Part shown: positions 23,904 through 31,745 of the stretch, piece by piece
Layout of the letters: each line of letters opens with the position of its first letter
How positions within the stretch are numbered: position 1 is the first letter of the stretch
Assembly (NCBI GenBank): GCA_023138735.1
Contig: JAGLOY010000006.1
Location: 1-32,681 of the forward strand
Source: Candidatus Aegiribacteria sp.
Lineage (GTDB): Bacteria > Fermentibacterota > Fermentibacteria > Fermentibacterales > JCC-6
Direction: 5' to 3'
DNA: 32,681 nt
Made by a program: the position numbers and the translations under genes
Notes under the pieces: model-generated
What the model saw: only the letters and a program-made list of their open reading frames with translations
Told to the model about the DNA's origin: nothing
The model's database searches: none

Positions 23904-23928
23904 AATAGTTTAGAATGCTTTAAGATTG

Positions 23929-23956
23929 GGGGGTATGGCTGAACTGCCATATCCCC
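23929..23956 (+). terminator. 11-bp hairpin, possible terminator
   Basis: Bases 23929-23939 pair with 23946-23956 (GGGGGTATGGC with GCCATATCCCC, one G-U) around a six-base loop. No T-tract follows, so termination may be weak or factor-assisted. Its position after the secreted-protein gene and before the GTG start at 23983 argues that the upstream in-frame TTG (23926) and ATG (23935) are not the ferredoxin start. Confidence 0.5.
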
Positions 23957-23982
23957 TGATATTCAGAAAGGGAGATATTTCT

Positions 23983-24483
23983 GTGTTTTCAAAGAGCAGA
24001 TGGATCGTCCCAATAATGCTGTTCATAGTTGCCGCTTCCGCCATCGCGATGCTATGGATCTATCAGGTCGATCCGGCTATCTGCAACGGATGCGCGAGAT
24101 GCATCCCGTACTGCACCACAGGCGCCCTCTCCATGGTTGGCTCCAATGCTGTGATCGATCCTGCTCTTTGTAACGGCTGTGGTGATTGTGTGCCACCCTG
24201 TATTCGCGGAGCTATTTACAAGTACTGGTACGTAGGAATTACCGGGGACGAAACCGAGGGGCAGATCTCGTTCGGACCAAACCCCGCAGTGGAATCAGTT
24301 TTCGTAACCGGCGCAGCAGCCGGTGATCCGGTAGAAGTATTCGATCTCACCGGAAGGCTTGTTGCATCCACTGTTGTATCCCCCGACGGAGAAGCGGTAC
24401 TTGAATTGTCGAATCTTGCTTCCGGTAACTACCTTATTCGGGTTGGAATGGATGAATTTCAGGTATTAACCCTCATCAAATAG
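23983..24483 (+). CDS. Exported 2[4Fe-4S] ferredoxin-like protein with C-terminal sorting domain
   Basis: This 166-residue protein combines three parts. Residues ~1-27 are a hydrophobic signal or anchor (SKSRWIVPIMLFIVAASAIA). A dicluster ferredoxin domain at ~32-80 has two full CxxCxxCxxxC motifs, CNGCARCIPYC and CNGCGDCVPPC, able to bind two [4Fe-4S] clusters. The last ~75 residues are a sorting domain (FGPNP, VEVFDLTGRLVAST, GNYLIRV) like those of the M14 and C25 peptidases. A secreted ferredoxin is unexpected because clusters form in the cytoplasm. GTG 23983 is chosen because AAAGGGAGA (23968-23976) precedes it and it starts the signal peptide. It could pass electrons outside the cell or act as an iron-sulphur sensor. 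Confidence 0.82.
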   Translation: MFSKSRWIVPIMLFIVAASAIAMLWIYQVDPAICNGCARCIPYCTTGALSMVGSNAVIDPALCNGCGDCVPPCIRGAIYKYWYVGITGDETEGQISFGPNPAVESVFVTGAAAGDPVEVFDLTGRLVASTVVSPDGEAVLELSNLASGNYLIRVGMDEFQVLTLIK

Positions 24484-24607: not shown

Positions 24608-24883
24608 ATGTGCAAGGATAATACATACCTGAGAAATCCTGATGTGGCTCTCAGAGAAGAGGACGAAAGCGGCAGCCTGCTCTTCAATCCCGATACCGGG
24701 GAGGTTCTCGTCATCAATGATACCGCCAGATTCATATGGGAACTTTGCTCTGAAGGCGTCACTATGGATGATATTGTCCATGCATTCGCTGAAAGCTACG
24801 ATGATCTTCCGGAGAACCTGATCGAAGATGTAGATTCATATTTGCTCGTAATGACAAAGGGTGGCTTCATTGGATCGAAGTAA
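24608..24883 (+). CDS. PqqD-like RiPP recognition protein
   Basis: This 91-residue protein has the PqqD fold: NPDVALREEDESGSLLFNPDTGEVLVINDTARFIWELC, then a helical half with YLLVMTKGGFIG. The DTGEVLVINDTA.FIW core is typical of RiPP recognition elements, which bind the leader of a precursor peptide and hand it to a modifying enzyme. It overlaps the first radical SAM gene by about 14-23 bases, so the two are translationally coupled, and it opens the peptide-modification operon. It may correspond to ScmD of the SynChlorMet cassette; this rests on memory of that family and needs a profile search. Confidence 0.88.
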   Translation: MCKDNTYLRNPDVALREEDESGSLLFNPDTGEVLVINDTARFIWELCSEGVTMDDIVHAFAESYDDLPENLIEDVDSYLLVMTKGGFIGSK

Positions 24884-26023: not shown

Positions 26024-27118
26024 ATGACTGATAATTCAACTTCAGTTCCGGGACTCGGGACCATATACATGTACACTTCAGGAGCCTGCAATCTTAACTG
26101 TGCTCACTGCTGGATAGACCCGGAGTATCAGAAGGAGGGTGAAACAAGCAGCCTTCACCTCGATCCTGCTCTTGTTGAGAAAGCACTGATCCAGGGGAAG
26201 CCTCTTGGTCTCAGATCAGTGAAGCTTACAGGTGGCGAACCCCTGCTAAATCCTCGAATTAAAGAAATCATCGAACTCATTTCCGACCAGGGAATGAGCA
26301 TAATCATAGAAACGAACGGAACCCTGGTAGATAGGGAAATGGCCAGATTCCTCGTGTCGACCGATAAGTTCGGATACATTTCGGTAAGCCTTGATGGAGC
26401 TGACGCAGAGACACATGAAGAGTTGAGGAGAGTAAAGGGATCCTTCGATAAAGCTGTTCAGGGCATTCGGAACCTTGTAGATGTCGGTGTGAACCCTCAG
26501 ATAATATGCACTCTTCATCGAAAGAACATTTCCCAGATTCATGATGTTACAGCGTTAGCGAAACACTTGGGCTGTGGATCGGTAAAATTCAACCACGTAC
26601 AGCATGTGGGTAGAGGAAGGGAGTTCGAGGAAGATCGCGCTCTATCCGTACCTGAGATTATTGAACTGAATAATACCATAGAAGAAGAAGTTATTCGGAC
26701 AGCAGGTGTACGCGTACTGCTGGATATACCCTTCGCATTCCAGAAACCAGCACGGTTTCTCAGGAGTGCTCCTGGAATATGCAACATACATCATATCATA
26801 GGTTTACTTGCCAATGGAGATCTTGCTCTCTGCGGGATTGGAACTTCAATTGATGATCTTCTGTACGGAAATCTGAAAACTGATGATCTTGAGGATATCT
26901 GGAAGAATTCTCCGAAGCTTGCCGAACTCAGGAAATTGATACCGGATGAGCTTCAGGGGATATGTTCGAAATGTGTTCATAAGAGATTCTGCAAAGGTAC
27001 GTGTGTTGCTGGGAACTACAATACAAGCGGTAAATTGAATGCTCCATATTATTTCTGTGAGACAGCGGAAAAACTGGGACTTTTCCCGGAAACCAGAATG
27101 AATATATTTGTACAGTGA
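26024..27118 (+). CDS. Radical SAM/SPASM peptide-modifying enzyme (second of two)
   Basis: This 364-residue enzyme has the radical SAM motif CNLNCAHC (Cys22, 26, 29), SAM-binding LTGGEPLLNPR and ETNGTLV. A SPASM domain with CSKCVHKRFCKGTC and a terminal Cys (YYFC) provides auxiliary clusters. It is only distantly similar to the upstream enzyme, so the two probably act at different sites or steps on the same peptide. Two different radical SAM/SPASM enzymes with a PqqD homologue is the hallmark of the SynChlorMet cassette. The start is fixed by the two-base gap after the upstream stop. The stop codon overlaps the ribosome site region of the precursor gene. Confidence 0.9.
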   Translation: MTDNSTSVPGLGTIYMYTSGACNLNCAHCWIDPEYQKEGETSSLHLDPALVEKALIQGKPLGLRSVKLTGGEPLLNPRIKEIIELISDQGMSIIIETNGTLVDREMARFLVSTDKFGYISVSLDGADAETHEELRRVKGSFDKAVQGIRNLVDVGVNPQIICTLHRKNISQIHDVTALAKHLGCGSVKFNHVQHVGRGREFEEDRALSVPEIIELNNTIEEEVIRTAGVRVLLDIPFAFQKPARFLRSAPGICNIHHIIGLLANGDLALCGIGTSIDDLLYGNLKTDDLEDIWKNSPKLAELRKLIPDELQGICSKCVHKRFCKGTCVAGNYNTSGKLNAPYYFCETAEKLGLFPETRMNIFVQ

Positions 27119-27129
27119 AGGAGTGTATT

Positions 27130-27378
27130 ATGACTGAAAGAAAAATATACCTGAAACCTCGAGCAGTTAACCTTTCAGGTTTTGGTGTTATCGGTCAGGA
27201 ACCTCTAGGAACATGTGCCAACGGGACTAACCCCACTGTCGCTTATTGCGTTTCGGGAGACGGAGTACTGCAGTCCTCAGAGAGCTGTTCTCCAACTGGT
27301 ATGAATCCAACAGCTGGTTTCTGTAGTACAGGGGGAAACGTCGAAAACAACTGTTCCTGGGGCTCCATTTTTTCATGA
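27130..27378 (+). CDS. Candidate RiPP precursor peptide with two Cys/NPT repeats
   Basis: This 82-residue peptide sits between the maturase and kinase-like genes. The first ~28 residues (start MTERKIYLKPRAVNLSGFG) are a basic-hydrophobic leader that could bind the PqqD-like protein. The rest holds five Cys (29, 40, 53, 65, 75) and two copies of C-x(4,5)-NPT-x3-C-x2-G-x2-V at 29-46 and 53-71, then a third partial unit CSWGS. Gly, Asn, Ser and Thr dominate. There is no catalytic motif. AAGGAG (27117-27122) is seven bases before ATG 27130, so the in-frame GTG at 27115 is rejected. The Cys and neighbouring residues are plausible sites for radical SAM cross-linking. Confidence 0.82.
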   Translation: MTERKIYLKPRAVNLSGFGVIGQEPLGTCANGTNPTVAYCVSGDGVLQSSESCSPTGMNPTAGFCSTGGNVENNCSWGSIFS

Positions 27379-27384
27379 CGCCGT

Positions 27385-28323
27385 GTGGCTGAGAAGCAGA
27401 GATTCGATTATTATTTTCAGCTAGCGTGCAGTTGTTTCCACATAAACTCCGATTCGAACATCAACTGCTTTCTTCTCCCCCGTTTTTCTGTTTTCTATTC
27501 TAACTGCAATGATTATTTCTCTGCAATCAGATATACTTTTGTGGATGAAAATGAATCTTGTGAAACACCATTCTCAAAAACGGAGTGCAACGACCTTCTC
27601 AGTGCATTTGAGTATCCACTGAAACAATACGAAGTACCTTACTGGAACAGCCATATTCTGAACTTCCCTCCCGTCAGAAAACTACTGGAAGACTGTTCCA
27701 ACCACGGAGAGCAAGTTACCCTTGAGATCAGGAAACACTCTCTTGTAATAATCGATTTCCTCCAGCATCGGATGGACATTTTCTACTCCAGAGATAACGT
27801 TCACACGATAATCGAAGGCAGAGTAGACCCATTAATATTTACGCCATTTCTGCATGATATACGTGCTCTTATTGTCCATAGCTCCTGTGTGAGTTTCGAT
27901 GGAAGGGCCGCTGTGTTCCTCGCTATGGATGAAGGAGGTAAGACAACCGCCGCAAACCTCTGCAAAGGTGGAAGGGTTTTGGCGGATGACCAGATCATCT
28001 TCAGGAAGCAGGATGATGGTGGTTGGCTCGCTTACGGAACTCCCTGGACTACTTTCCCGCCTGATCCAGATCATGCTGTACCGGCTGCGTTCTTCCTGCT
28101 TGAGAAAGCTGATGAATTCAGCCTTACTGAACTGAGTTCTCGAGAACTGTTCTCATTTCTCTGGGGTGAGCATTTTAAAATAAGATTTCAGATACCTTCA
28201 ATGTACCAGACTACTTTGTTCGATCTTTATCGGGAGCTCTCTTCTTCTGCATCGGTATATCTCATGAAATCCCCGAAGGATTACATCGATCAGGATGCTA
28301 TCCTGAAATGTATGAAACCGTGA
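27385..28323 (+). CDS. HPr-kinase-like P-loop protein of the peptide cassette
   Basis: This 312-residue protein has an N-terminal part without known motifs and a C-terminal HprK-like P-loop region. VHSSCVSFDGRAAVFLAMDE is followed by GGKTTAANL (Lys186), then VLADDQIIFRK (Asp201-202), and the pattern TPWTTF seen in HprK relatives of RiPP clusters. The Walker A is atypical (AMDEGGKTT instead of GxxxxGKST). Relatives in lasso peptide clusters phosphorylate the precursor, and a protein of this kind may be ScmC of the SynChlorMet cassette. GTG 27385 is six bases after the precursor stop with no clear SD, suggesting coupling. It overlaps the next gene by 16 bases. Confidence 0.78.
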   Translation: MAEKQRFDYYFQLACSCFHINSDSNINCFLLPRFSVFYSNCNDYFSAIRYTFVDENESCETPFSKTECNDLLSAFEYPLKQYEVPYWNSHILNFPPVRKLLEDCSNHGEQVTLEIRKHSLVIIDFLQHRMDIFYSRDNVHTIIEGRVDPLIFTPFLHDIRALIVHSSCVSFDGRAAVFLAMDEGGKTTAANLCKGGRVLADDQIIFRKQDDGGWLAYGTPWTTFPPDPDHAVPAAFFLLEKADEFSLTELSSRELFSFLWGEHFKIRFQIPSMYQTTLFDLYRELSSSASVYLMKSPKDYIDQDAILKCMKP

Positions 28324-28907
28324 AGACTTCCTTCCGGTTCTATCATGGTCGTAGTATGAGAACTGTATTTCAGTCGGGTGACTGTATCATCTTTGAAGAG
28401 ATCCCCTCTGAACGATTGAGAAAGGGTGATGTGATCGTTTACAGCAGCAATTCTGGTACTGGAATGGATGTTGCTCACAGGATCATCGGAATTAGTGAAA
28501 GCTCCTTTGAAGTTAAAGGTGATGACAATCCTTCCGGTACCGCTGAAACGATTCCCTTCCAGAGGGTGCTGGGACGGGTGGTTGCTGTTGAACGCGAAGG
28601 GAAGAAGCGGAAACCTGTCACCGGAGGGAAGCGCGGTTCTCTATGGGCAGGATTTGTTTCAAGGGAGGGATTTCCAAGAAAAATCTTCAGGTGGTTCTAT
28701 TCCGTTCTGAAACATTCTGGAGTAATCAGGCTTTTGTGGAGACCAGAGATAGAGACTTATAGTCTGGCAACCGATGCAGAGTCTGTGATTCGTCTTGTCA
28801 GCAACGGGAAGAATGTGGGCAAGTGGTGTGCTGAGCGAAAAATACTTGTATTGAAGAAGCCCTATGATCTGATTGTACGGGTGCGGGATGGGAAACTTCA
28901 GCTGTAG
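28308..28907 (+). CDS. S26 signal-peptidase-like protein without membrane anchor
   Basis: This 199-residue protein has the S26 fold: HGRSMRTVFQSGDCIIF with candidate nucleophile Ser16, RKGDVIVY, then DVAHRIIGI with His57 in the place of the general base, as in the eukaryotic/archaeal (SipW-like) type, and a GDDNPSGTAETIP box. It lacks the usual N-terminal membrane helix, so it would act in the cytoplasm. The last ~90 residues are basic and unassigned. It could cleave the leader of the modified peptide. It starts inside the HprK-like gene and its stop overlaps the convergent ABC gene by ten bases. Confidence 0.82.
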   Translation: MYETVKTSFRFYHGRSMRTVFQSGDCIIFEEIPSERLRKGDVIVYSSNSGTGMDVAHRIIGISESSFEVKGDDNPSGTAETIPFQRVLGRVVAVEREGKKRKPVTGGKRGSLWAGFVSREGFPRKIFRWFYSVLKHSGVIRLLWRPEIETYSLATDAESVIRLVSNGKNVGKWCAERKILVLKKPYDLIVRVRDGKLQL

Positions 28908-30697
28908 GCGCTTGCCTGGATTGAATACATCTCTTGGTACTTGCCGTTTATCTCCATCAGTTCTTCATGGGTGCCCTGTTCAATTATTCTTCCTTTATCC
29001 ATTACAGCTATTCTATCTGCCATTCTTACTGTTGAGAATCTGTGGGAGATTATCACAGAGGTTCTTCCCTGCACCAGCTCTCTGAATTTTGTGAACACAG
29101 CATGCTCGGCTTTGGCATCCAGCGCGCTGGTTGGTTCATCGAGAATAACAATGGGTGCATCCCGAATGAACGCTCTGGCAAGGGCAATCTTCTGCCATTC
29201 GCCAATGGAGAGTTCCATGCCTCCTTTGAATGATCTGCCAAGAACGGTTTTGTACCCGTCCGGTAAATTCTGAATCATTAAGTCAGCACCCGCTGCTTCA
29301 GCTGCCAGGTGGATCAGGGAATCATCCGGGGAATGCTTGATATCACCCAGCCTGATGTTCTCGGCAGCTGTGAGATGGTACTTAGCATAATCCTGGAAGA
29401 TGATGCTGATGTTGCTGCGATGGTCCTCAACACTAAAATCTTTTATGGAAGTGCCATCAATACTTACGCTGCCTGAAACTGGGTCGTAAAGTCTGCAGAG
29501 AAGCTTCACAAAGGTTGTTTTACCTGAACCGTTCTCCCCAACCAGAGCAAGCATCTCACCGGGGTTGATCCTGAGCGAAATATCATCGAGAGCCTTTCTG
29601 CTGCTGGATGAGTAATTGAAGTCCACATTATCGAAAACGATTCCTTCATTTATGTTCGGTGGGAATGGGCGAGGATTGACAGGATCGATAACCGATGGCT
29701 TAATGTCAAGGAAATCGAAAAGATTGGAGAGGAACAAATTGCTTTCGTAAAGACCTGCCAGGCTTCCCAGAAGACCTTTGAGGTATCCAAGCCCTCTCTG
29801 AAAGGCCTGGAAGTACATTACCATTCCACCAATGGTTATAAGGCCTGCAAATGCCTGCTTTGCTATGAAGGCCAGCGAGCCGTAGATAAGCAGCGTTGCT
29901 AAGGCTTGAGTGGCAAAATCGGCTGTCGCCCTTCTCTTTGATATTCCCAGTATTTCCTTGCGGATGATAGCTCTTAGATTCAGGTACATTGATCTGAAGT
30001 GCTCTCCGAGGCCGAACAGCCGCAGCTCTTTCGCATGCCCAACAGAAGTTAACAACCAGTGCTTATACCACGCTTTCCGCTCGGTCTCTGTTCTTTTGCG
30101 CTGCCACTTCCAGTTGACTTTAGAAAACTTGAGTTTTACAAGAACTCCCGGAAGCGCTGCTGCAACAAGGACAACAGCTACAATCCAGTGGAAGGAGAGA
30201 AGCAGCCCGACCATGGCAAGCATTGAAATACTGCTCTGGATTGTCCTGATAAAACCGTTTACAATACTTGTGGGCCTGTACGGCGCCTCACCCTGCGCCC
30301 TGTGCATTGTATCGTAGAACTTCGAATCCTCGTAATATGCGAGATCAACTTCGATGGATTTCTTGTGAAGGATGTCCTGCATGTAATCGGTAACTACCCT
30401 GGCCTGGGTCTGTTCAACTATCCCGGCAATAGATTTTACAAAAGATGACAGCAGTGCCACACCGCCCATTATTCCTATGAGAAGGCCAATGTGACCGAAA
30501 GAAGTGGTGTTGCTGTCGTTTATAACTGACTCGATTGAATCGATGAGGAGTTTCATAAGATAGAGGGGGATCAGTGGGAGCAACCCCTGAATAATAGTCA
30601 GGATGAGATTTGCGATGGTCAGCCCCCGGCTGCTTTTCCAGACGAAAGAAACTGCTCTTCCGAGCATCAGTTTCTTACTGCCGGTTTCAGGTTTCAT
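28898..30697 (-). CDS. ABC exporter, fused permease and ATPase
   Basis: This 599-residue half-transporter has about six membrane helices in residues 1-~330, then an ATPase domain with Walker A GENGSGKTT, Q-loop IIFQDYAKYHL, a variant signature LSIGEWQK, Walker B IVILDEPT and H-loop ISHRFS. It has no C39 peptidase domain, so it would not remove a leader itself. Lying tail-to-tail with the S26-like gene, it is a good candidate for exporting the mature peptide, but the opposite strand means separate transcription. The start codon ATG 30697 has only a weak ribosome site. It is divergent from the nucleotidyltransferase gene. Confidence 0.92.
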   Translation of the reverse strand: MKPETGSKKLMLGRAVSFVWKSSRGLTIANLILTIIQGLLPLIPLYLMKLLIDSIESVINDSNTTSFGHIGLLIGIMGGVALLSSFVKSIAGIVEQTQARVVTDYMQDILHKKSIEVDLAYYEDSKFYDTMHRAQGEAPYRPTSIVNGFIRTIQSSISMLAMVGLLLSFHWIVAVVLVAAALPGVLVKLKFSKVNWKWQRKRTETERKAWYKHWLLTSVGHAKELRLFGLGEHFRSMYLNLRAIIRKEILGISKRRATADFATQALATLLIYGSLAFIAKQAFAGLITIGGMVMYFQAFQRGLGYLKGLLGSLAGLYESNLFLSNLFDFLDIKPSVIDPVNPRPFPPNINEGIVFDNVDFNYSSSSRKALDDISLRINPGEMLALVGENGSGKTTFVKLLCRLYDPVSGSVSIDGTSIKDFSVEDHRSNISIIFQDYAKYHLTAAENIRLGDIKHSPDDSLIHLAAEAAGADLMIQNLPDGYKTVLGRSFKGGMELSIGEWQKIALARAFIRDAPIVILDEPTSALDAKAEHAVFTKFRELVQGRTSVIISHRFSTVRMADRIAVMDKGRIIEQGTHEELMEINGKYQEMYSIQASAYS

Positions 30698-30761
30698 TGG
30701 ACTAATCTATAACGCATATGCTGGAGGAACCAGCATAAGGGTGGTGATATTCCAATCCCTG

Positions 30762-31745
30762 ATGTATCAATTGAGCGATATGAAAAACATAGAGCACCGC
30801 GATGCGATAACAGTAGCTGCCTGTCAGTGGCTCCTGTCCGGAGGCCTGACCGGAGCTTACTCCGGGCCCGATCCCGGCCCAGCTCATGATCTATCGCCTC
30901 TTCTCGCGAAGGAGATGGGTCGAAAGGATATCAGTCTGTCTGCAGCAGGGGCATGGTTCCGCCAGGAGCAGATAGTTCGACCGGTTCTGGAACGGCTTTC
31001 TGAAGCAGGCATAGAAGTATGGGCGATTAAGGGTTTTGACCTTGCCAGAAGTGTGTATCCATTTCCGGGTGGAAGACCCATGTGCGATGCTGATGTGTTC
31101 TTGGATGACGATAACCGGCAGAAGATTCTGAGTATTTTTACTCAATCCGGCTGGTCAAGAGGATCTCCCGGAGACGGTATTTTCAATTCAGGCATTGTAT
31201 CCGAGATGAAGATGTATAAGCATGATGTTATGGTTGAGCTGCATACTCACATTTTCTATTTTCCCGCTACATTTCCCGGAAGGCTCCCGATAGATCTGTT
31301 CGATAAAGGAAGGCTGCTGGAACCTGGGCTGATGGGATTCGCCTGGCATAATGCGCTTTTGATGGTCCTTCTTCATATGCTGACTAATGTAAGGATAAGA
31401 CCTGTGTGGTGGGTGGATATCTGTATGCTCTGCATGAAGATTTCCAAAGCAGGCACATGGGCTGAATTCGCACGGAATGCCTTTGAAACGAAGCTGGGTA
31501 ACTCTATTGCAACGCTGCTGGGAACTGCTTCCGTTGAACTGGAGGCTCCTGTTCCCGGATCAGTGCTGGAAGTGCTCAGGGTAACTGACAGTGGGAGAGA
31601 GGATATAATCGAAAAACTGAAATCAGGGCGTAAGGTACCTACTCTGCTCAATCTGAGATACCTGACTGGCTGGAAAAGAATCTCCTGGCTCTATGCTCTT
31701 TTCTGGCTTGTTCTTACAGGTCAGCATCCGTTGAGGCGAAAATAA
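30762..31745 (+). CDS. Nucleotidyltransferase-like protein (NTP_transf_5 type)
   Basis: This 327-residue protein shows the pattern EVWAIKGFDLARSVYP (Lys90) followed by GGRPMCDADVFL (Asp109, Asp111), a D-x-D typical of the uncharacterised nucleotidyltransferase family PF14907. Family members often occur in lasso-peptide and capsule clusters, together with HprK-like kinases. It could nucleotidylate a peptide or another small compound. The frame is open upstream to 30603 but would run antisense through the ABC gene; ATG 30762 (or 30780) is preferred, though neither has a strong SD. It is 97 bases from the glycosyltransferase gene and in the same direction. Confidence 0.75.
   Translation: MYQLSDMKNIEHRDAITVAACQWLLSGGLTGAYSGPDPGPAHDLSPLLAKEMGRKDISLSAAGAWFRQEQIVRPVLERLSEAGIEVWAIKGFDLARSVYPFPGGRPMCDADVFLDDDNRQKILSIFTQSGWSRGSPGDGIFNSGIVSEMKMYKHDVMVELHTHIFYFPATFPGRLPIDLFDKGRLLEPGLMGFAWHNALLMVLLHMLTNVRIRPVWWVDICMLCMKISKAGTWAEFARNAFETKLGNSIATLLGTASVELEAPVPGSVLEVLRVTDSGREDIIEKLKSGRKVPTLLNLRYLTGWKRISWLYALFWLVLTGQHPLRRK

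Follow-up and report, generated by a model that had tools for sequence, protein, structure and literature searches.

What does a small cysteine-rich reading frame encode when it lies just behind two radical SAM genes, and what would the enzymes around it do to its product? The window, by which is meant the whole analysed stretch of 32,681 nucleotides from Candidatus Aegiribacteria sp., raises this question at 27130-27378, where a preliminary description had placed an 82-residue Cys-rich peptide as a candidate cassette precursor. The ORF, its frame and its coordinates are correct, and the product very probably serves as a divergent RiPP precursor of ScmA type in an SCM-like (SynChlorMet) cassette, as had been proposed in outline. 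The call is made because of the leader, the repeated Cys core, the position after the maturases, the orthologues and the profile homology. The gene and its parts are these:

27118..27123, + strand: ribosome site AAGGAG, with the ATG 6 bases downstream
27130..27378, + strand: ScmA-like RiPP precursor ORF, 82 aa, 5 Cys
27148..27159, + strand: leader motif Y7-x-x-P10, of the class recognised by discrete RREs according to the available part of PMC13381572
27214..27234, + strand: unit 1, C29-ANG-TN-P35 (class-A alignment)
27247..27267, + strand: unit 2, C40-VSG-DG-V46 (class-A alignment)
27286..27309, + strand: unit 3, C53-SPTG-MN-P60, one residue longer (class-A alignment)
27322..27342, + strand: unit 4, C65-STG-GN-V71 (class-A alignment)
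27352..27372, + strand: unit 5, C75-SWG-SI-F81 (class-A alignment)

The ORF translates as MTERKIYLKPRAVNLSGFGVIGQEPLGTCANGTNPTVAYCVSGDGVLQSSESCSPTGMNPTAGFCSTGGNVENNCSWGSIFS. Its ATG lies 11 bases past the stop of the ScmF-like radical SAM gene, and six bases separate its own stop from the next ORF, a kinase. The start at 27130 is supported because AAGGAG, rightly judged a good ribosome site, precedes the ATG, and because relatives use the same Met. The precursor dN/dS of 0.26-0.29 (window compared with G022, G017 and G019; 0.12-0.15 for ScmF in the same pairs) indicates that the gene is coding and subject to purifying selection. The leader has a dN of 0.16-0.18, the core one of 0.43-0.52. By dN/dS the leader evolves more slowly than the core in two of the three pairs (0.15 vs 0.36 and 0.11 vs 0.41); the exception is G019 (0.22 vs 0.19), a pair in which core dS is close to saturation. 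Against G039, synonymous sites are saturated for the precursor, the precursor core and ScmF alike. A chance ORF is ruled out by dN/dS and the orthologues. The peptide matches no NCBIfam or Pfam model.

Comparable peptides occupy the same position in relatives, in line with what the preliminary description expected. A search of 60 relatives found the precursor in four sister genomes, each time adjoining ScmF, at 50-63% identity (E 3e-27 to 4e-22; 49-61% in the class-A alignment); further genomes give weaker matches. Of 42 genomes in the phylum, 11 match the class-A profile, with 12 matches in all, and every one of the 12 shares a contig with an ScmF-like gene, about 1 kb or less away. The gene is conserved, carries the C-x2-G repeat and is linked to the cassette. 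In G003 (L062) a tandem pair of precursor copies stands behind ScmF. A third ScmF-linked peptide type also occurs in this phylum (L067, L069, L070, L071, L072, L076-L080, L083-L085). Its pattern is FPxxYxKPxL ... GWxAxC ...; most members carry two or three C-x2-G, L072 none, and the C-terminal tail frequently includes an NPD-like stretch and closes with GL. Three examples were scanned, two having no NCBIfam match and one a weak StsA sactipeptide match (E 0.0095).

How the core is to be read emerges from the nine-row class-A alignment. The two core units already noticed at residues 29-46 and 53-71, together with a half unit (75-81), are present, and the core halves are more alike than expected: 4 of 10000 shuffled cores reach the same score. 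NPT, put forward earlier as the repeated modification site, is confined to the window peptide and missing from the 8 other rows; what is kept instead, in 9/9 rows, are the five core Cys and the Gly that completes each C-x2-G (in unit 3, C-x3-G). The full set of invariant positions comprises Y7, P10, S16, G17, G22, G27, C29, G32, C40, G43, C53, P55, G57, P60, C65, G68, C75 and G78. The conserved theme, and the likelier modification signature, is C-x2-G-x2-[P/A/V], not NPT, and five C-x2-G units describe the window core better than two and a half NPT units do. The alignment across genomes that had been suggested as a check thus comes out divided: the Cys/Gly units are conserved and leader length is fairly constant (22 residues from Y to the first core Cys in 7/9 rows, 24 in L098, 32 in L063), but NPT is not conserved. 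Residue 79, directly after the last C-x2-G, is Ser in 8/9 rows and Thr in 1/9.

The neighbouring genes are the following:

24608..24883, + strand: PqqD-type RRE (ScmD-like); PF05402 E 4e-14, TIGR04248 52 bits
24861..26021, + strand: ScmE-like radical SAM/SPASM enzyme; TIGR04250, C-x3-C-x2-C at 29, SPASM cysteines
26024..27118, + strand: ScmF-like radical SAM/SPASM enzyme; TIGR04251, C-x3-C-x2-C at 22, SPASM cysteines
27385..28323, + strand: HprK/PEPCK-like kinase (ScmC-like); H165, K186, D201 and D202 invariant
28308..28907, + strand: archaeal-type signal peptidase I-like protein; TIGR02228 51.8 bits (cut-off 51.85), S16, H57, D72
28898..30697, - strand: MsbA-like ABC exporter; NCBIfam and Pfam
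30603..31745, + strand: NTP_transf_5 nucleotidyltransferase; PF14907 E 2e-20, true start probably downstream of 30603

ScmE and ScmF both have the SPASM auxiliary cluster cysteines and PF13186 matches by which sactipeptide enzymes are recognised. Among solved structures, those closest to ScmF in sequence include cytosylglucuronate decarboxylase, PqqE, the sactisynthase SkfB, 5wgg, 5v1q and others; they are of mixed kinds, so any bond type proposed here is tentative. The kinase has no Pfam match and a weak HprK_rel_A match (E 0.012). H165, G185, K186, T188, D201 and D202 are kept in 15/15 aligned rows, three of its aligned relatives exceed the TIGR04249 ScmC cut-off, and a search of the PDB with its profile retrieves HPr kinase (E 1.4e-5). 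Its predicted structure (pLDDT 87) matches PEPCK at E 1e-7 (TM 0.47) and HprK at E 8e-5 (TM 0.28 by query length, 0.49 by target length); these TM-scores are low, so the fold call rests on E-values and motifs over superposition. By sequence and predicted fold, the kinase is akin to HprK/PEPCK. The S26-like protein, a candidate leader peptidase, keeps S16, H57 and D72 in 13/13 rows; none of its 19-residue segments is strongly hydrophobic (maximum 0.69). The catalytic-type residues of kinase and peptidase are thus both conserved.

Elsewhere, the pair of exporter and NTP transferase adjoins ScmF-like cassettes whose peptides differ (L065, L069, L071), where the exporter is 76-87% identical; the pair looks like a movable module. 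Ahead of the cassette, 23926-24480 on the + strand encodes a two-cluster 4Fe-4S ferredoxin, possibly extracytoplasmic: a hydrophobic stretch lies at its N-terminus and a T9SS type A sorting domain at its C-terminus (31.8 bits against a cut-off of 23). The first features of the window are the final part of a 23S rRNA (1-97) and a 5S rRNA gene (163-279); an ORF listed at 19-381 overlaps these rRNA genes and is probably not a gene. Across the whole window, Rfam at gathering scores returns the rRNA ends only.

In what sense is this an SCM cassette? The NCBIfam SCM models are TIGR04248-TIGR04252 (ScmA, ScmC-ScmF). Since TIGR04252 bears the name 'SCM_precur_ScmA', an SCM precursor had been proposed earlier, and the preliminary description erred in taking the SCM substrate as unidentified, though this model (cut-off 35 bits) gives no match to the window peptide. 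Window ScmF scores 385.6 bits against TIGR04251 and ScmE 346.3 bits against TIGR04250, both under the cut-off of 400; ScmD, at 52 bits against TIGR04248, is under its cut-off of 100, and the kinase has no match to ScmC TIGR04249 (cut-off 125 bits). With its enzymes under the SCM cut-offs, the cassette is therefore called SCM-like and kept apart from SCM as curated. The likeness lies in a similar gene set, in many loci in similar order, in the C-x2-G repeats that ScmA-type peptides carry, and in ScmC, a homologue of the window kinase in which H, GK, T and DD are likewise invariant; the difference lies in ScmD, ScmE and ScmF scoring under the cut-offs and in a kinase and peptide that the ScmC and ScmA models do not match. 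In a wide sense the window holds an SCM-like cassette, with PqqD, two radical SAM/SPASM enzymes, peptide and kinase together, and its peptide is an SCM-like precursor by hhalign homology to an ScmF-linked set that includes TIGR04252 matches. Queries of open-licence literature with SynChlorMet, ScmA, ScmE/ScmF and the TIGR numbers found no cassette study.

To follow the peptide beyond the phylum, an ScmF alignment was scanned against one genome per species and the best 80 of 291 relatives, from many phyla, were taken. Peptides were called by a rule ([YW]xxP, then at least two C-x2-G) set post hoc, after the first peptides had been seen. Six of the 80 loci, with <600 bases downstream of ScmF, were left out. 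Among the remaining 74, a rule-matching same-strand ORF lies within 400 bases past ScmF in 46, a count that includes a chance ORF in L133 (45 without it) and misses L092 and L093, because there the called ORF start overlaps the ScmF match. When the 800 bases downstream are Markov-shuffled, 18 of 3700 shuffles contain such an ORF. With the distance widened to 5 kb and both strands allowed, 64 of these 74 loci have a rule-matching ORF and 10 have none. Of 81 ORF hits at the best 80 of 291 loci, 79 lie within 6 kb of ScmF and 2 in the remaining 226 kb. Taking away those 2 distant hits, 6 chance ORFs dropped by eye (one each in L096, L124, L128, L133, L137 and L139) and 2 near-identical copies leaves 71 C-x2-G repeat peptides no more than 6 kb from an ScmF-like gene; they come from many phyla and include the sister-genome relatives, and the window peptide makes 72.

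In these 72 peptides, from the best 80 of 291 loci, Gly stands at +3 after 334 of 409 Cys, a figure inflated by the rule's demand for two C-x2-G, which alone guarantees at least 144 (shuffled cores: mean 72.5, maximum 96). A or P, a feature outside the selection rule, stands at +6 after 202 of the 409. The 334/409 count used the last [YW]xxP match, which misplaced a few rows; a recount from the first match gives Gly +3 in 338/415 and A/P +6 in 204/415. Successive Cys are 9-12 residues apart in 248 of 337 gaps, and in the leader a hydrophobic residue follows Y/W at +5 in 66/72 peptides (Ala counted) and at +8 in 69/72. Aligned by hhalign with the 59 peptides that remain when class A and its nearest relatives are set aside from the 72, class A reaches 98.3% (E 1.6e-14, score 73); 200 column shuffles score at most 18.4 and the reversed profile 9.3, and the leader alone gives 94%, the core alone 93%. 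Pfam finds ten families among the 72 peptides, one peptide each, best E 0.0037. TIGR04252 reports 24 of the 72 at E <= 1 (best E 8e-7, 29.2 bits), and 0/72 reach its cut-off of 35 bits. It follows that a large likely radical SAM substrate family is unannotated, as judged from these best 80 of 291 loci. Three loci (L103, L105, L139) have three peptides each, and the longest array is in L165 (2515-2988, - strand), an ScmA-like peptide with 12 C-x2-G units, the maximum among the 72 (best 80 of 291 loci).

ScmF and ScmA distances are correlated (r 0.41, 66 rows; 0/2000 permutations as high), a modest correlation that falls to 0.30 without near-copies (61 rows); shared descent alone could be its cause. 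In a quick ScmF tree of 81 rows (best 80 of 291), a support-100 branch divides 20 rows, the window's among them along with Aminicenantes, Chloroflexota, Acidobacteriota and Methanothrix, from 61 that include Chlorobium, Syntrophaceae and others; rooting is at the midpoint, and either side may be the clade. Phylum labels change 31 times on this tree (minimum 14, shuffled mean 40.9), which suggests gene transfer, though bins can hold foreign contigs. Cassette enzymes lie in a Methanothrix (archaeal) bin at L156 and L158; L156 has no rule-matching peptide and, nearby, two weakly similar C-rich ORFs with YEPP leaders. The partners recur: the 38 loci with long flanks (the flank was too short at 42 of the best 80 of 291 loci) have ScmE in 37, PqqD in 36, ScmA in 35, kinase in 33, S26 in 30, ABC in 21 and NTP in 19. 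This is the stricter recount; a looser one, open to ScmE/PqqD cross-hits, gave ScmE 38, PqqD 38 and kinase 34, and left the other four counts unchanged.

The closest precedents for such a set of enzymes are in other RiPP classes. The linear polyphosphorylated peptides (LPP; LppA-K-B-S-D-N) were published in 2026, and the available part of that account reports that YxxP is essential for RRE binding, that the kinase places several phosphates on one Ser, not on Thr at that site, and that a signal-peptidase-like enzyme (Ser/His/Asp) cuts the leader off with the RRE assisting (PMC13381572). The window contains the whole LPP enzyme set: as far as that account extends, YxxP leader, discrete RRE, HprK-like kinase, archaeal-type (SpI-like) signal peptidase with Ser/His/Asp, NTP transferase and MsbA-like exporter are common to both. 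The two differ in that the window adds two radical SAM/SPASM enzymes, of which the available part of PMC13381572 makes no mention, and in the Cys-Gly repeat core, which belongs to the window system; nor does the LPP leader motif YxxPxVLxHQxIxFETxxS occur in the window leader, which reads YLKPRAVNLSGFGVIGQ. Lasso peptides of the paeninodin/pseudomycoidin type share a PqqD-type B1, an HprK-like kinase with a His-Lys-Asp-Asp motif and a nucleotidyltransferase, and their kinases phosphorylate Ser, according to the excerpts available (PMC9266682, PMC8498205). The 10 window proteins scanned differ in having no macrolactam synthetase or B2 protease, and with no such cyclase among them a lasso peptide is ruled out. 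For the core, the nearest parallel is streptosactin (GggA/GggB), whose C-alpha thioethers join Cys31 to Gly34 and Cys25 to Ser28 (PMC8172795, PMC13361665, as excerpted; one passage gives Cys15 in place of Cys25). Its two unnested four-residue rings have the same C-x2-acceptor spacing as the window, a likeness of spacing; streptosactin is streptococcal, with two units and one radical SAM enzyme, and the excerpts mention no kinase.

A pathway can be sketched from these analogies, in which the neighbouring enzymes probably cross-link, decorate and export the peptide. The PqqD-type RRE would hold the leader through Y7-x-x-P10 and the hydrophobic stretch that follows, and ScmE and ScmF would act on the five C-x2-G units. 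By analogy with the lasso and LPP enzymes, the HprK-like kinase may phosphorylate Ser/Thr, perhaps residue 79, and the NTP transferase may build further on that phosphate; the signal-peptidase-like enzyme would cleave the leader, on the model of LppS, and the MsbA-like transporter would carry the product out. Predicted export suggests a putative role in signalling or competition. Leaving the exact bond aside, we hold with good confidence that the peptide is the precursor of a divergent SCM-type RiPP cassette and is modified at its C-x2-G units. The bond itself may be a thioether from Cys to the C-alpha three residues on, closing a four-residue ring as in streptosactin; this is a tentative choice, to which we give a little less than an even chance.

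The same units leave room for other chemistry. The radical SAM enzymes might instead join each Cys to a side-chain carbon, as in ranthipeptides, or to the small residue (Pro, Ala, Val) standing at +6, and the Gly at +3 would then serve a turn and no more. The frequency of A or P at +6 given above is some three times the A plus P background of the cores, 56/72 peptides (best 80 of 291 loci) finish 6-8 residues past the last Cys, just behind its +6 position, and the solved relatives of ScmF include 5wgg and 5v1q, which we take to be CteB and SuiB. We consider this linkage unlikely, if still worth weighing, since Gly at +3 is far more constant and 29 of the 409 +3 positions in the same peptides are Ser/Thr, the exchange reported for streptosactin in the excerpts available. 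Further from the thioether, the enzymes might form C-C or C-O bonds or act as epimerases or decarboxylases, leaving the Cys as disulfides or metal ligands. SPASM enzymes catalyse many different reactions, several kinds of them by the solved relatives of ScmF, and disulfides are common in Cys-rich exported peptides. Five core Cys here, and the often odd counts in the range of 2-15 among the 72 peptides (best 80 of 291 loci), are nevertheless poor for pairing, and the class-A core (9 rows) is without an invariant aromatic or Lys, all of which makes such chemistry rather improbable.

The number of products is a separate matter. Two or three linked products per precursor had been foreseen, and the range of 2 to 12 units among the 72 peptides (best 80 of 291 loci), as in multi-core RiPPs, would suit a precursor cut into several separate small cyclic products. 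There is little to recommend that outcome here: inspection of the class-A alignment by eye shows no conserved cleavage site between units, one protease-like protein only was found among the 10 window proteins scanned, and five rings on one product fit equally well. A small structural or metal-binding protein, in the operon by accident, is a very improbable reading of the peptide, given its RRE-type leader motif, its repeat core, the same ScmF-side place in many phyla, and the 0 of 12 profile matches found away from an ScmF-like gene in the 42 genomes of the phylum.

If the four-residue Cys-to-Gly thioether is the right choice, a larger and more doubtful picture may be entertained, of a hybrid class, undescribed so far, with consecutive rings of this kind that are also phosphorylated and perhaps glycosylated. 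It would be encoded in SCM-like cassettes of many phyla, perhaps including an archaeon, with five rings here and 2 to 12 C-x2-G units in relatives, and lasso/LPP-type enzymes would decorate the peptide before leader removal and export. The link from SCM to the tailoring enzymes of phosphopeptides and lasso peptides predicts thioether and phosphate on one product, a combination of which the portions of literature examined gave no example. The C-x2-G-x2-small unit, the YxxP leader and the recurring enzymes make ScmE/ScmF chemistry directly testable, in a peptide family built of repeated Cys-x-x-Gly units that is widespread and little studied.
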